From Bradyrhizobium sp. 186 (lineage in GTDB: Bacteria; Pseudomonadota; Alphaproteobacteria; Rhizobiales; Xanthobacteraceae), in the NCBI RefSeq assembly GCF_023101685.1, contig NZ_CP082164.1:9362001-9426000 (forward strand): a stretch of DNA of 64,000 nt, in the 5' to 3' direction. The notes beneath the pieces are model-generated. The model did no database searches. It saw only the letters and a program-made list of their open reading frames with translations, and was not told the DNA's origin. Shown here one piece after another: positions 801 through 4,692 of this stretch. Made by a program: the position numbers and the translations under genes. Position 1 is the stretch's first letter. Each line of letters starts with the position of its first letter.

Positions 801-1160
801 TTAGGCCGCCAGCATCTTGTTCACTTCGCTCACCAATTCGCGCAGGTGCACAGGTTTCGACAGCACCTTGGCGTTCTTGGGGGCGTCCGAATCCGAGTTC
901 AGCGCCACCGCGGCGAAGCCGGTGATGAACATGATCTTGATGTCGGGATCGAGTTCCGAGGCCCGGCGGGCGAGCTCGATGCCGTCCATCTCCGGCATCA
1001 CGATGTCGGTCAGGAGCATCTCGAACGGCTCTTCCCGCAGCCGCTGATAGGCGGCCATGCCATTGTCATGGGACGAGACCTGAAAACCGGCGTTTTCCAG
1101 CGCCTTGACCAGGAAACGGCGCATGTCGTTGTCGTCTTCGGCGAGCAGGATCTTTGGCAT
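801..1160 (-). CDS. cpdR: Single-domain response regulator CpdR
   Basis: This is a 119-residue stand-alone receiver domain with no output domain. It shows the acidic pair at residues 9-10, the phospho-acceptor Asp52 in LLTDIVMPEMDG, the TGFAA switch segment and the conserved Lys in LSKPVHLREL. Length and sequence match CpdR, the alphaproteobacterial regulator that in its unphosphorylated form primes the ClpXP protease for cell-cycle substrates such as CtrA and PdeA in Caulobacter. The ClpXP role is known for the family and inferred here. It stands alone between tRNA-Val and a divergent amidohydrolase gene; no kinase gene is adjacent, as expected because CckA-ChpT are encoded elsewhere. Confidence 0.92.
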   Translation of the reverse strand: MPKILLAEDDNDMRRFLVKALENAGFQVSSHDNGMAAYQRLREEPFEMLLTDIVMPEMDGIELARRASELDPDIKIMFITGFAAVALNSDSDAPKNAKVLSKPVHLRELVSEVNKMLAA

Positions 1161-1510
1161 GGCAGGAACGTCGAATCCTCAAAGCACATCAGCAGAGGTC
1201 ACTAAGCCCGACAGAGGGTAAATTTCGGGTGAAAATCTTTACCCTGAGCGAGACCCTTGGCGAGCTGCGCGGGCGCCCCTTGTGAACCGGAATGCGGCTG
1301 GAAGCAATCGAGCCGCTCGGAGAGAACCCGCTCCATCCCCGCAGGGTTAAGATACGTTCCAGCGCCGATCACATCTTTTCGCTTGGCAGACTGGTTGCGA
1401 TTCCGGACAATGAGGGCACATAAGAGCCGCTCGACCGGCCGAATCGATTCGATCCGGACCTTGCCGGATCTTTCCGGATCTTGCGGCGCGAAGGGACGAA
1501 GCCTGAGAAG

Positions 1511-2401
1511 ATGACCCGGTTTGACGGCGACATGTCGCCAGCCTTCGAGATCGTGGAGCCCGCCGAATGGCGCGCGCCGGTCATCTTCAACTCGCCCCAT
1601 TCCGGCTCGACCTACCCCGACGAATTCCTGCTGGCCTCGCGGATCGACCTGCCGACGCTGCGGCGGTCGGAAGATTCCTTTATGGACGAGCTGATCGGCC
1701 ATCTCAGCGATCGCGGCTTTCCGACCGTGCGGGTCAACTTTCCCCGCTCCTATGTCGACGTCAATCGCGAGCCCTATGAGCTCGACCCGCGGATGTTCTT
1801 CGGACGCCTGCCGAGCTTCGCCAATACCCGTTCGATGCGGGTGGCGGGCGGGCTCGGCACCATCCCGCGCGTGGTCGGCGACGGCCAGGAGATCTATCGC
1901 GAGCGCATTCTGGTCGACGACGCGCTGGGGCGGATCGAGACGCTCTACAAGCCCTACCACCGCGCGCTGCGCCGGCTGATCAACAAGGTGCACCAGATGT
2001 TTGGCACCGTGGTGCTGGTCGACTGTCACTCGATGCCCTCGGTCGGCGTCTCCCGCGACGAGCCGCGGCGGCCCGACATCGTGATTGGCGACCGCTACGG
2101 CACAAGCTGCACGCCGCTCTTGCCGGACCGGGTCGAGGACACCCTGAGCAGGCTCGGCTATTCGATCGGCCGCAACAAGCCCTATGCCGGCGGGTTCATC
2201 ACCGAGCATTACGGAAATCCGGCGAGCGGCCTGCACGCGGTGCAGCTCGAGCTCAACCGCGGGATCTACATGGACGAGCGGCGGCGCGAGCGCAGCCCGC
2301 GCTTTGCGCAGGTGGCCTCCGACTTCGCGGCGCTCGCCGACGTGCTGGCAACCACGATCCCGTTCGGCGATCTCGGCCCGTTCCAGGCCGCGGCGGAATA
2401 G
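1511..2401 (+). CDS. N-formylglutamate amidohydrolase family protein
   Basis: The protein is 296 residues and belongs to the N-formylglutamate amidohydrolase fold (HutG/FGase type), zinc-dependent enzymes that release formate from N-formylglutamate, the last step of one histidine-degradation route. Visible family features are FNSPHSGSTYP near the N-terminus, the VNFPRSYVDVNREPYELDPRMF block, DCHSMPS in the middle and the late ITEHYGNPASGLHAVQLELNR segment. ATG 1511 follows a purine-rich GAGAAG; a TTG at 1481 would only add ten basic residues. No hut genes are nearby, so the real substrate is uncertain. It runs divergently from cpdR, and its stop is about 100 bp from a small-RNA terminator on the other strand. 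Confidence 0.85.
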   Translation: MTRFDGDMSPAFEIVEPAEWRAPVIFNSPHSGSTYPDEFLLASRIDLPTLRRSEDSFMDELIGHLSDRGFPTVRVNFPRSYVDVNREPYELDPRMFFGRLPSFANTRSMRVAGGLGTIPRVVGDGQEIYRERILVDDALGRIETLYKPYHRALRRLINKVHQMFGTVVLVDCHSMPSVGVSRDEPRRPDIVIGDRYGTSCTPLLPDRVEDTLSRLGYSIGRNKPYAGGFITEHYGNPASGLHAVQLELNRGIYMDERRRERSPRFAQVASDFAALADVLATTIPFGDLGPFQAAAE

Positions 2402-2499
2402 CGCTCGCTTTTCTTTGTGATCAGATCGCGCGCGCATCTGGCGCGAGCATGTTTCGCTTCGCACCGTTGCGCGCGCGAAAATGAAAACAGCAGGCCCAA

Positions 2500-2587
2500 G
2501 AAAAAAGGGCCGCTTGTTATGAACAAGCGGCCCAAGTCTAGGGAGGAAACGCCCAAGGAGGGCAGCGGTAACGCAAAGCGCTACCGC
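2500..2587 (-). ncRNA. Probable trans-acting small RNA with anti-Shine-Dalgarno loops
   Basis: On the minus strand there is a self-contained small-RNA architecture of about 88 nt with no convincing ORF. It opens with a 10-bp hairpin with a three-base loop (2565-2587). A 4-bp hairpin whose loop is UCCUU follows (2551-2563), then an unpaired stretch containing UCCUCCC (2541-2547), and it ends in a 12-bp terminator stem (2507-2533) followed by six T residues. CU-rich exposed segments complementary to ribosome-binding sites are a known hallmark of several alphaproteobacterial sRNA families. The 5' end is set by a promoter-like pair at 2594-2624. Family membership is not established here. Confidence 0.7.
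2501..2533 (-). terminator. Rho-independent terminator of the small RNA
   Basis: The stem GGGCCGCTTGTT pairs perfectly with AACAAGCGGCCC around a three-base loop (2507-2533) and is followed on the minus strand by TTTTTT (2501-2506). No protein gene on the minus strand ends here, which is why an RNA gene is proposed. Confidence 0.88.
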
Positions 2588-2593
2588 ACCGCA

Positions 2594-2624
2594 ACAATAT
2601 GCGGCCGCGACGCACAAAGTGCAA
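2594..2624 (-). promoter_or_regulatory. Candidate promoter of the small RNA
   Basis: The minus strand shows TTGCAC (2619-2624), a 19-base spacer and TATTGT (2594-2599). Initiation about seven bases further would fall at 2587, exactly the first paired base of the first hairpin. The spacer is longer than the usual 17, so this is moderate evidence. Confidence 0.45.
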
Positions 2625-2925
2625 GGGCTTTTGAGCCGTTTCCCATGCAAAACACACATGGCTCGGTTGCTTCCAGAGAAACCCAGATTCAGTTCTTTTA
2701 ATAAGGAATTTCAATGGCTTGATAGTCATTTGCATACGAACAAGGCATGTTCGGAACTAAGTATTCAACTCAATGATCGATATTTGGCCAACCTATGATT
2801 TGTTTGAGGCAGCGAGGCGCGGCATCCAAAATACCAGGGTGCAAATCAAGACACCGCTGCCCGCCACAGGCGAATTGAGATAGGCAGATGCGAGCTTCAC
2901 CCGACTTTCGTTTCGAGGATGTGCC
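2625..2925. other. Intergenic stretch without a recognised gene
   Basis: Between the small-RNA promoter and hisN the sequence is locally AT-richer (around 2690-2800) and carries only short out-of-context ORFs. I see nothing further here beyond the likely hisN promoter region. Confidence 0.5.
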
Positions 2926-3708
2926 GTGACGGTGATCGACTTCTCAGCCTTCATCGGACGGCTCGCCACCGCTTCCGGCGAAACTATCCTGCCGTTCTTC
3001 CGCACCTCGCTCTCGATCGACGACAAGAGCAAGACCAAGGATTTCGATCCCGTGACCGAGGCCGACCGCGCCGCGGAAGCGGTGATGCGGCGGCTGATCA
3101 AGGCCAACTTCCCCCAGCACGGCATCGTCGGCGAGGAATTCGGCAACGAGCGCGAGGATTCGGACTATGTCTGGGTGCTCGACCCCATCGACGGCACAAA
3201 ATCCTTCATCGGCGGCTTTCCGATCTGGGGCACGCTGATTGCGTTGCTGCACAAGGGCGCGCCGGTGTTCGGCATGATGCATCAGCCCTTCATCGGCGAG
3301 CGCTTCTCCGGCGACAACGGCTCGTCCAATTATAAGGGCCCCTCCGGCGAGCGCCGGCTCCAGGTCCGCCGCTGCGCCTCGCTGTCGGAGGCCACGACCT
3401 ACACCACCAGCCCGCTGCTGATGAACGAGCGCGATCGCACCATTTTCGGCCGCATCGAGAAGGGCGCGCGGCTGTCGCGCTATGGCGGCGACTGCTACTC
3501 CTATTGCATGCTGGCGGCAGGTCACGTCGATCTCGTGGTCGAGACCGAGCTGAAGCCCTATGACATCGCAGCGCTGATCCCGATCGTGACCGGTGCCGGT
3601 GGCGTCGTCACCACCTGGGAAGGCAAGCCGGCCCAGGGTGGCGGCCGCATCGTCGCCGCCGGCGATGCGCGGGTTCACGAAGAAGCGCTGAAGCTGCTCA
3701 ACGGATAG
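2926..3708 (+). CDS. hisN: Histidinol-phosphatase, inositol monophosphatase-type (HisN)
   Basis: This 260-residue enzyme of the Mg-dependent inositol-monophosphatase superfamily carries the three metal-site segments: VTEADRAAE (about 40-48), GEEFG (about 66) and LDPIDGTKSF (about 84), plus the late YGGDCYSYCMLAAGHVDLVVE block. In alphaproteobacteria this branch is the HisN type histidinol-phosphatase, which dephosphorylates L-histidinol phosphate in histidine biosynthesis; a broader sugar-phosphatase role is the alternative. It starts with GTG 2926, chosen because GAGGA lies six bases before it. The next gene begins 18 bp after the stop, so the two may be cotranscribed, although the partner has no clear link to histidine. 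Confidence 0.85.
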   Translation: MTVIDFSAFIGRLATASGETILPFFRTSLSIDDKSKTKDFDPVTEADRAAEAVMRRLIKANFPQHGIVGEEFGNEREDSDYVWVLDPIDGTKSFIGGFPIWGTLIALLHKGAPVFGMMHQPFIGERFSGDNGSSNYKGPSGERRLQVRRCASLSEATTYTTSPLLMNERDRTIFGRIEKGARLSRYGGDCYSYCMLAAGHVDLVVETELKPYDIAALIPIVTGAGGVVTTWEGKPAQGGGRIVAAGDARVHEEALKLLNG

Positions 3709-3726
3709 GCGACAAAGGGAGCTTGG

Positions 3727-4692
3727 ATGAAAAACTGGCGCAAGTTCGTCCTCGCGACCCTGTTGCTGTTTCCGGCGCTCGCGTCGGCGCAGAATTTTCC
3801 GGCCAAGCCGATCCGTCTGGTGGTGCCGTTCCCAGCCGGCGGCCCCAACGACATCATCGCGCGGGTGATCGGCCAGCGCATGTCCGAACTCGCCGGTCAG
3901 CCGGTGCTGATTGACAATCGCGGCGGCCAGGGCGGCGTGCTCGGCACGGATGCGGTCGCAAAGGCCCCGTCCGACGGCTACACCATCGCGATCTCCAGTG
4001 CCGGCGCGCTCGCGATCAGCCCGAGCATGGAGAGGGTCGCCTACGACACGCTGTCCGACCTGACGCCGGTGACGCTGGTTGCGACCGTGCCGGAAATGCT
4101 GGTGGTCGCGACCAACGTGCCCGCAAAGGACATCGGCGAATTGATTGCGTTGGCGAAGGCGCAGCCCGGAAAGCTCAACTTCGCCTCCTCCGGCCCCGGC
4201 AGCCTGCCGCATCTCGCCGGCGAATTGTTCAAGCTGACGGCGAAGATCGACATCGTGCATGTGCACTATCGCGGCGCCGCGCCTGCGGTGAACGATCTTC
4301 TGGGCCAGCAGGTGCAGATGACCTTCCTCGACCTCCCGGTGCTGCTGCCGCAGATCAAGGCAGGCTCCTTGCGCGCCGTCGCGGTCGGCTCGGCGGAACG
4401 CGCACCGACTGCGCCTGATGTGCCGACCACGGCGGAAGCCGGCTTTCCGGACCTCCGCATCGAGAACTGGTACGGCATGGTGGCGCCCAAGGGCACACCG
4501 ACAGAGATCGTCACGGCGCTGCATCGTCTCGCGACGCAGGCGATGGCGGATCCGGCGGTGAAAGAGAAGCTCGCGGCGCAAGGCGCAACGCTGATCGGCG
4601 ACACGCCGGAGCATTTTCGGCAGTTCATCGCGGACGAGACCGCGAAATGGGCGAAGGTGATCAAGGACGCCGGCGTGGAGACGGCGAAGTAG
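3727..4692 (+). CDS. Bug-family tripartite tricarboxylate transporter binding protein
   Basis: A 321-residue periplasmic solute-binding protein of the Bug (TctC) family. It has a signal peptide cleaved after ASA (about residue 21), then the family hallmarks: FPAKPIRLVVPFPAGGPNDI at the mature N-terminus, IDNRGGQGGVLGTDAVAKAPSDGYT (about 60-85), and a C-terminal segment EHFRQFIADETAKWAKVI. Such proteins bind small carboxylates or related anions and are far more numerous than the TctAB membrane partners; none is encoded here, so it may be an orphan receptor or use a distant transporter. It lies 18 bp behind hisN and is followed by an inverted repeat region. Confidence 0.88.
   Translation: MKNWRKFVLATLLLFPALASAQNFPAKPIRLVVPFPAGGPNDIIARVIGQRMSELAGQPVLIDNRGGQGGVLGTDAVAKAPSDGYTIAISSAGALAISPSMERVAYDTLSDLTPVTLVATVPEMLVVATNVPAKDIGELIALAKAQPGKLNFASSGPGSLPHLAGELFKLTAKIDIVHVHYRGAAPAVNDLLGQQVQMTFLDLPVLLPQIKAGSLRAVAVGSAERAPTAPDVPTTAEAGFPDLRIENWYGMVAPKGTPTEIVTALHRLATQAMADPAVKEKLAAQGATLIGDTPEHFRQFIADETAKWAKVIKDAGVETAK

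Follow-up and report, generated by a model that had tools for sequence, protein, structure and literature searches.

Among the bacterial small RNAs described so far, the closest to the locus studied here are those of the suhB/MmgR family. Corbino et al. in 2005 (PMC1273637) described the suhB RNA on the strand opposite to the suhB gene, with a promoter and a terminator, a short 5' helix and unstructured conserved stretches, and counted five copies in B. japonicum. In a review (PMC7143759), MmgR, of the α-r8 family, is presented as an sRNA of 77 nt that depends on Hfq, that carries an anti-Shine-Dalgarno (aSD) motif in its first loop, and for which, according to the same source, no direct target was known in 2020. 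Work in S. meliloti has shown that mmgR is repressed by PhaR, that MmgR depends on Hfq, and that it has an effect on phasins and PHB (PMC12542648, PMC7143759, PMC8401924). The PhaR site of this species is a palindrome with the core YGCRNYGCR, and EMSA has shown binding of PhaR to the mmgR promoter (PMC12542648); a conserved dyad lies between the -35 and -10 elements of mmgR (PMC8401924). An NtrC input and an RpoN entry are also reported for mmgR in that species. In B. diazoefficiens the PhaR consensus is given as TGCRNYGCASMA (PMC6201568) and, in a looser form, as NGCN3GC[GA] (PMC10888616). Conserved synteny for MmgR is cited in the GLASSgo paper.

In this study we focus on a locus of Bradyrhizobium sp. 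186 that lies in a stretch of 64,000 nucleotides (NZ_CP082164.1, positions 9,362,001 to 9,426,000), referred to below as the window. An earlier note had read there a free-standing sRNA gene on the minus strand, and the promoter pair, stems, loops, UCCUCCC motif and terminator that it named were all found in place (Table 1). The start site of the transcript was placed from the spacing to the -10 element and from conservation. The 12-bp terminator stem is the longest of five terminator-like sites in 1000-4500, where 3.0 are expected. The promoter fails an E. coli-type sigma-70 scan, and its layout, as judged by eye, is similar in genus, family and many order loci. Minus-strand open reading frames across the sRNA locus are mechanical only. 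A plus-strand terminator serving the convergent gene was considered and rejected, the plus-strand copy of the hairpin being followed by AAGTCTAGGG and not by T. Elsewhere in the window, Rfam models identify a tRNA gene (RF00005, 655-726, minus strand) and a speF leader (RF00518, 36069-36226, plus strand, 56.8 bits).

Table 1. Features of the sRNA locus and its neighbours (window coordinates).
Feature	Position	Strand	Details
MmgR/suhB sRNA gene	2501..2587	-	Inferred transcript of about 87 nt, start inferred; RF00519 match, fold z -5.8, family in 40/40 genus genomes
Promoter	2596..2624	-	TTGCAC 2624-2619, 17-nt spacer, CATATT 2601-2596; from sequence
PhaR/AniA-like box 1, TGCGTCGCG	2606..2614	-	Between -35 and -10; consensus from PMC12542648 and PMC6201568
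PhaR/AniA-like box 2, TGCGGTGCG	2585..2593	-	Spans the inferred start site
5' hairpin	2565..2587	-	10-bp stem 2587-2578/2574-2565, with one G-U pair and a UUU loop; mostly not covered by the Rfam model
Second hairpin GCCC-UCCUU-GGGC	2551..2563	-	4-bp stem 2563-2560/2554-2551, CU-rich UCCUU loop; from sequence
Linker GUUUCCUCCCUAGACUU	2534..2550	-	Main conserved motif; UCCUCCC at 2547-2541
Intrinsic terminator	2501..2533	-	Perfect 12-bp stem 2533-2522/2518-2507, 3-nt loop, T6 2506-2501
N-formylglutamate amidohydrolase gene (PF05013)	1481..2401	+	Convergent neighbour; Pfam 244.9 bits
Inositol-monophosphatase (suhB-like) gene (PF00459)	2926..3708	+	Divergent neighbour; Pfam 197.8 bits

The earlier note had proposed a search of Rfam, and a whole-window cmscan at gathering thresholds identified suhB/MmgR (RF00519) at 2493-2570 on the minus strand, with 74.1 bits for a cut-off of 41 and an E-value of 1.8e-13. 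The alignment covers positions 1-77 of the model completely, and the traits of the family are present, namely the short 5' helix, the conserved CU-rich stretch, the intrinsic terminator and the promoter, the latter by conservation only. The locus resembles the suhB RNA of Corbino et al. (PMC1273637) in its core sequence, its terminator, its place opposite a suhB-like gene and the presence of several copies per Bradyrhizobium genome: five RF00519 matches, four of them over the cut-off, were found in the own genome, compared with the five copies reported in B. japonicum. It differs from the Rfam family in that the model starts at window position 2570, leaving out most of the 5' hairpin. With S. 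meliloti MmgR it shares the family, a PhaR/AniA-type box in the core promoter, the aSD motif of the first loop and three stem-loops, whereas the reported length of MmgR is 77 nt and that of the predicted Bradyrhizobium RNA about 87 nt. In Bradyrhizobium, the locus represents the ortholog of the MmgR (suhB, α-r8) sRNA; this family is known from many related soil bacteria, and so the RNA is not new.

RF00519 matches (E 0.001) are widespread. They were obtained in all 40 genus genomes, with 1 to 12 in each, in 59 of 61 family genomes, the two misses being genomes 74% and 79% complete, and in 72 of 81 order genomes (63 of the 81 over the cut-off), the own genome being counted in all three sets alike. 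Searching named genomes with the exact core pattern gave 119 stretches, and the 80 matches listed include Bradyrhizobium, Rhodopseudomonas, Afipia and Methylobacterium as well as Xanthobacter, Ancylobacter, Bosea and Hyphomicrobium. The gene neighbourhood is also maintained: both flanking genes (PF05013 and PF00459) were present at 30 of 31 genus loci, at 25 of 29 family-search loci (one of the 29 from the same genus) and at 19 of 28 order-search loci, 23 of these 28 having at least one; since the family and order stretches span only about 3 kb, some missing flanking genes may be edge effects. At all 44 two-gene loci of the family and order searches, the PF05013 and PF00459 genes stand on opposite sides of the RNA. 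Rfam, synteny and conservation together support the reading of a free-standing sRNA gene with exposed CU-rich motifs.

The core promoter contains two matches to the broader PhaR core (boxes 1 and 2 in Table 1). The last letter of both window boxes is G, against A in the B. diazoefficiens consensus, and it is the broader S. meliloti consensus that fitted. A PhaR/AniA-like box was detected in the promoter zone of 76 of the 82 syntenic orthologs, i.e. those with at least one flanking gene (genus 30/30, family 27/29, order 19/23), while shuffled sequences averaged 1.2 with at most 6, and the count was 2-9 of 82 in seven flanking windows. The six orthologs without a box are L040, L041, L073, L077, L084 and L089. 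This count left out L006, which is without flanking genes, and L074, L083, L090, L091 and L092, where none was found; the box is nevertheless present in L006 and in four of these five loci. Furthermore, a stricter PhaR pattern had 31 matches in the own genome, some being one place read on both strands, compared with 5 for the reversed pattern, and it occurs upstream of three Pfam-confirmed PF09361 phasin genes. PhaR/AniA-like boxes are thus a conserved sequence feature of the core promoter, as in MmgR (α-r8).

The predicted structure is unusually stable. The fold of 2501-2598 (minus strand) has an energy of -49.1 kcal/mol compared with a shuffle mean of -29.0 (z -5.8, 0 of 200 shuffles as good). 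In a MAFFT alignment of 32 of the 88 loci, covering genus and family only, the core, which runs from GCCC to GGGCC, shows no variation; single core letters differ in order-level loci such as L071, L073 and L080. For the 32 orthologs RNAalifold keeps three hairpins, in which 12 of 24 pairs show at least one double-sided compensatory change; the 5' stem and the terminator, the latter in its upper stem, account for six each. In the same alignment, 1 to 5 cells are broken at several pairs of the 5' stem. As the 4-bp stem is constant in these orthologs, it carries no covariation information, and the covariation that the earlier note had predicted was observed for the 5' stem and for the terminator. 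Among paralogs the 4-bp stem does vary, as judged by eye.

Because the MAFFT alignment of the 5' arm was imperfect, an alignment-free count of the 5' stem was also made. A stem with a score of at least 7, ending just before the second hairpin, was found in 53 of 59 loci, whereas 100 composition shuffles averaged 7.4 such loci and never exceeded 15. This set holds mostly one row per distinct 5' segment; the non-syntenic L074, L083, L090, L091 and L092 were kept, and L006 and L081 were left out, the segment of L081 being that of L088. Folded alone, the short 5' segment of the window is not unusual (17 of 200 dinucleotide shuffles as good), and the same often holds for the short 5' segments of other single sequences. 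In L081 and L088 the loop of the 5' hairpin contains CUCCUCCC, which gives that lineage a third CU-rich motif.

The two CU-rich motifs, which the earlier note had read as exposed, are not equally conserved. Both the second hairpin and the linker are without variation in the 32 aligned orthologs. Across 45 further genus loci, a chosen part of the genus matches comprising 43 without flanking genes and two syntenic ones (L093 and L111), CCUCCY is kept in 44, whereas the exact UCCUU-loop hairpin is found in 15, which makes the linker the main conserved motif. In the minimum-energy fold of 2501-2598 a few long-range pairs join the upstream leader to the linker, and "unpaired" is therefore a local reading of the linker. 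With published MmgR work as a model, the CU motifs are probably able to mask the ribosome-binding sites of mRNAs.

The other copies in the genus differ at the promoter. The PhaR-like box is present in both syntenic loci (2/2) and in 1 of the 43 other copies; by class, it is found in 0 of 41 copies sorted by eye into classes and in 1 of 2 ortholog-like copies (L006). Eight copies (L005, L100, L119, L120, L123, L125, L126 and L130) form a terminator-bearing MmgR-like module in which the RF00519 match begins 1-3 nt past a stop codon. This stop codon ends the same coding letters in all eight, and the upstream gene is alanine dehydrogenase by Pfam in L005 and L100, the two that were scanned. In L005, which belongs to the own genome, the CU seed is degenerate. 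L003, L004, L115, L118 and L124 were grouped by eye as another paralog class; L004 is found about 0.2 kb before an aldehyde dehydrogenase frame; it is convergent with L005, at a distance of about 2 kb.

Copies are also carried by plasmids (L094, L095 and plasmid matches H3-H6), in records of B. elkanii, B. barranii and B. japonicum. In four Bradyrhizobium plasmid records, about 61% of the query is matched with 93.9% identity; these records list no feature at the copies, which means little, since RNA genes are not entered in the gene table. L094 is preceded by a DDE_3/HTH transposase-like frame, which we take to be IS630-like. A real possibility, though short of a probable one, is that in Bradyrhizobium the MmgR seed was copied into several regulons: one ancestral copy would have stayed under PHB/PhaR control, and the paralogs would have kept CCUCCC, lost the box and either acquired other promoters or come to ride on mRNA 3' ends, as in the copies just past the stop codon of alanine-dehydrogenase-type genes, with different signals converging on one seed.

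CU-rich anti-SD motifs are likewise exposed by NfeR1 (α-r14). In the review of these sRNAs such motifs are common to several families, including AbcR1/AbcR2 (α-r15), in which they are exposed in unpaired regions (PMC7143759), and the models of SorY (RF02651) and Atu_C4 (RF02499) give sub-threshold matches at the locus. We nevertheless consider it very unlikely that the RNA is another CU-rich alphaproteobacterial sRNA (AbcR/α-r15, NfeR1/α-r14, SorY or Atu_C4) and not MmgR. In a permissive Rfam scan of 2300-2800, SorY scored 19.7 bits for a cut-off of 111 and Atu_C4 16.9 bits for a cut-off of 80, and no family other than suhB passes its cut-off at the sRNA locus; AbcR1/AbcR2 and NfeR1 are separate families by their descriptions, and the PhaR-like box fits MmgR. 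The old family name implies another reading, in which the RNA acts in cis on the suhB-like gene as its leader or as an antisense element, and an inositol-monophosphatase gene does adjoin the RNA in most examined loci. However, RNA and gene are on opposite strands, transcription of the RNA runs away from the gene and stops at a terminator of its own, and Corbino et al. (PMC1273637) reject cis action for such reasons; moreover, 43 genus copies are without both flanking genes in their sampled stretch. The cis-regulatory reading was discarded on strand and terminator, and it appears extremely improbable.

Among possible direct targets, phasin mRNAs were at first striking. The RNA could act mainly by pairing of its UAGACUU linker and CU motif with phaP1 mRNA: all 13 clade-2 genus loci, as well as L204 and L205, have AGUCUGGG ahead of the phaP1 start, L211 and L223 hold the perfect 9-mer AAGUCUAGG, and in an S. 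meliloti mmgR mutant the phasin protein was increased while its mRNA was unchanged (PMC8401924). The linker complement, however, failed the shuffle test both overall and in the window's own clade. For 58 phaP1 upstream regions the result was not significant, with 162 of 2000 shuffles as good; by group, 600 of 2000 were as good in the own clade (17 loci), where the signal is not seen, 85 of 2000 in clade 2, a marginal result among members related by descent, and 212 of 2000 in the other family genera. None of the 30 phasin loci of the order search has AGTCT in the 110 nt that precede the domain, and the search pattern had been drawn from phaP1 itself. Direct pairing with phaP1 as the main action is thus unlikely. 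Matches to this phaP1 pattern were obtained in 16 genomes; in the 10 that were compared with a placed phaP1 start, the match lies at this start.

The pairing energy of phaP1, -25.2 kcal/mol, ranks at about 13-18 of 63 window gene starts, most of which pair more weakly; the values of the two further phasins, -16.8 and -17.9 kcal/mol, are weaker than the median near -22.8. GGGAGGAAAC adjoining an ATG occurs at 11 places of the own genome compared with 1 for the reversed pattern, and since it resembles any good Shine-Dalgarno site it names no target. The 12-base linker complement near an ATG gave 11 rows in 9 of 40 genomes, 7 of the 11 being antisense to RF00519 matches. L191-L205 and L211 contain a conserved AGUCU[GA]GG island before the phaP1 start codon; in some of these leaders the ribosome site could also be covered by a small hairpin between AGUC and GACU.

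As a whole, we consider it very probable that the locus encodes an MmgR ortholog that is released from PhaR by PHB granules and that lowers the translation of its targets through its CU motifs and Hfq. By analogy with the published S. meliloti work, PHB accumulation would provide granules that titrate PhaR off the promoter, allowing the MmgR RNA to be made. Together with Hfq, the RNA would then pair through its UCCUU loop and its UCCUCCC linker with purine-rich ribosome-binding sites, and the lowered translation of target mRNAs would limit phasin and PHB accumulation. Control by PhaR probably applies in this strain, and the window RNA probably acts in trans and binds Hfq, as published for S. 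meliloti MmgR. The term "suhB" was not found in the searched text of two B. japonicum transcriptome papers (PMC4842269, PMC5082802), and "sRNA" is absent from the main text of the B. diazoefficiens PhaR-regulon papers (PMC10888616, PMC6201568). An sRNA arm of the B. diazoefficiens PhaR regulon is therefore a testable prediction.

Our work ties a find made from sequence alone to a known PHB-linked regulator and shows that most of the loci examined across the order retain its PhaR-type box and its 5' hairpin. With a shared seed but not the box, the paralogs are a natural experiment for the way in which new inputs are acquired by an anti-SD sRNA. If the copying of the seed into several regulons holds true, different metabolic signals would converge in Bradyrhizobium on the same ribosome-site-masking seed.
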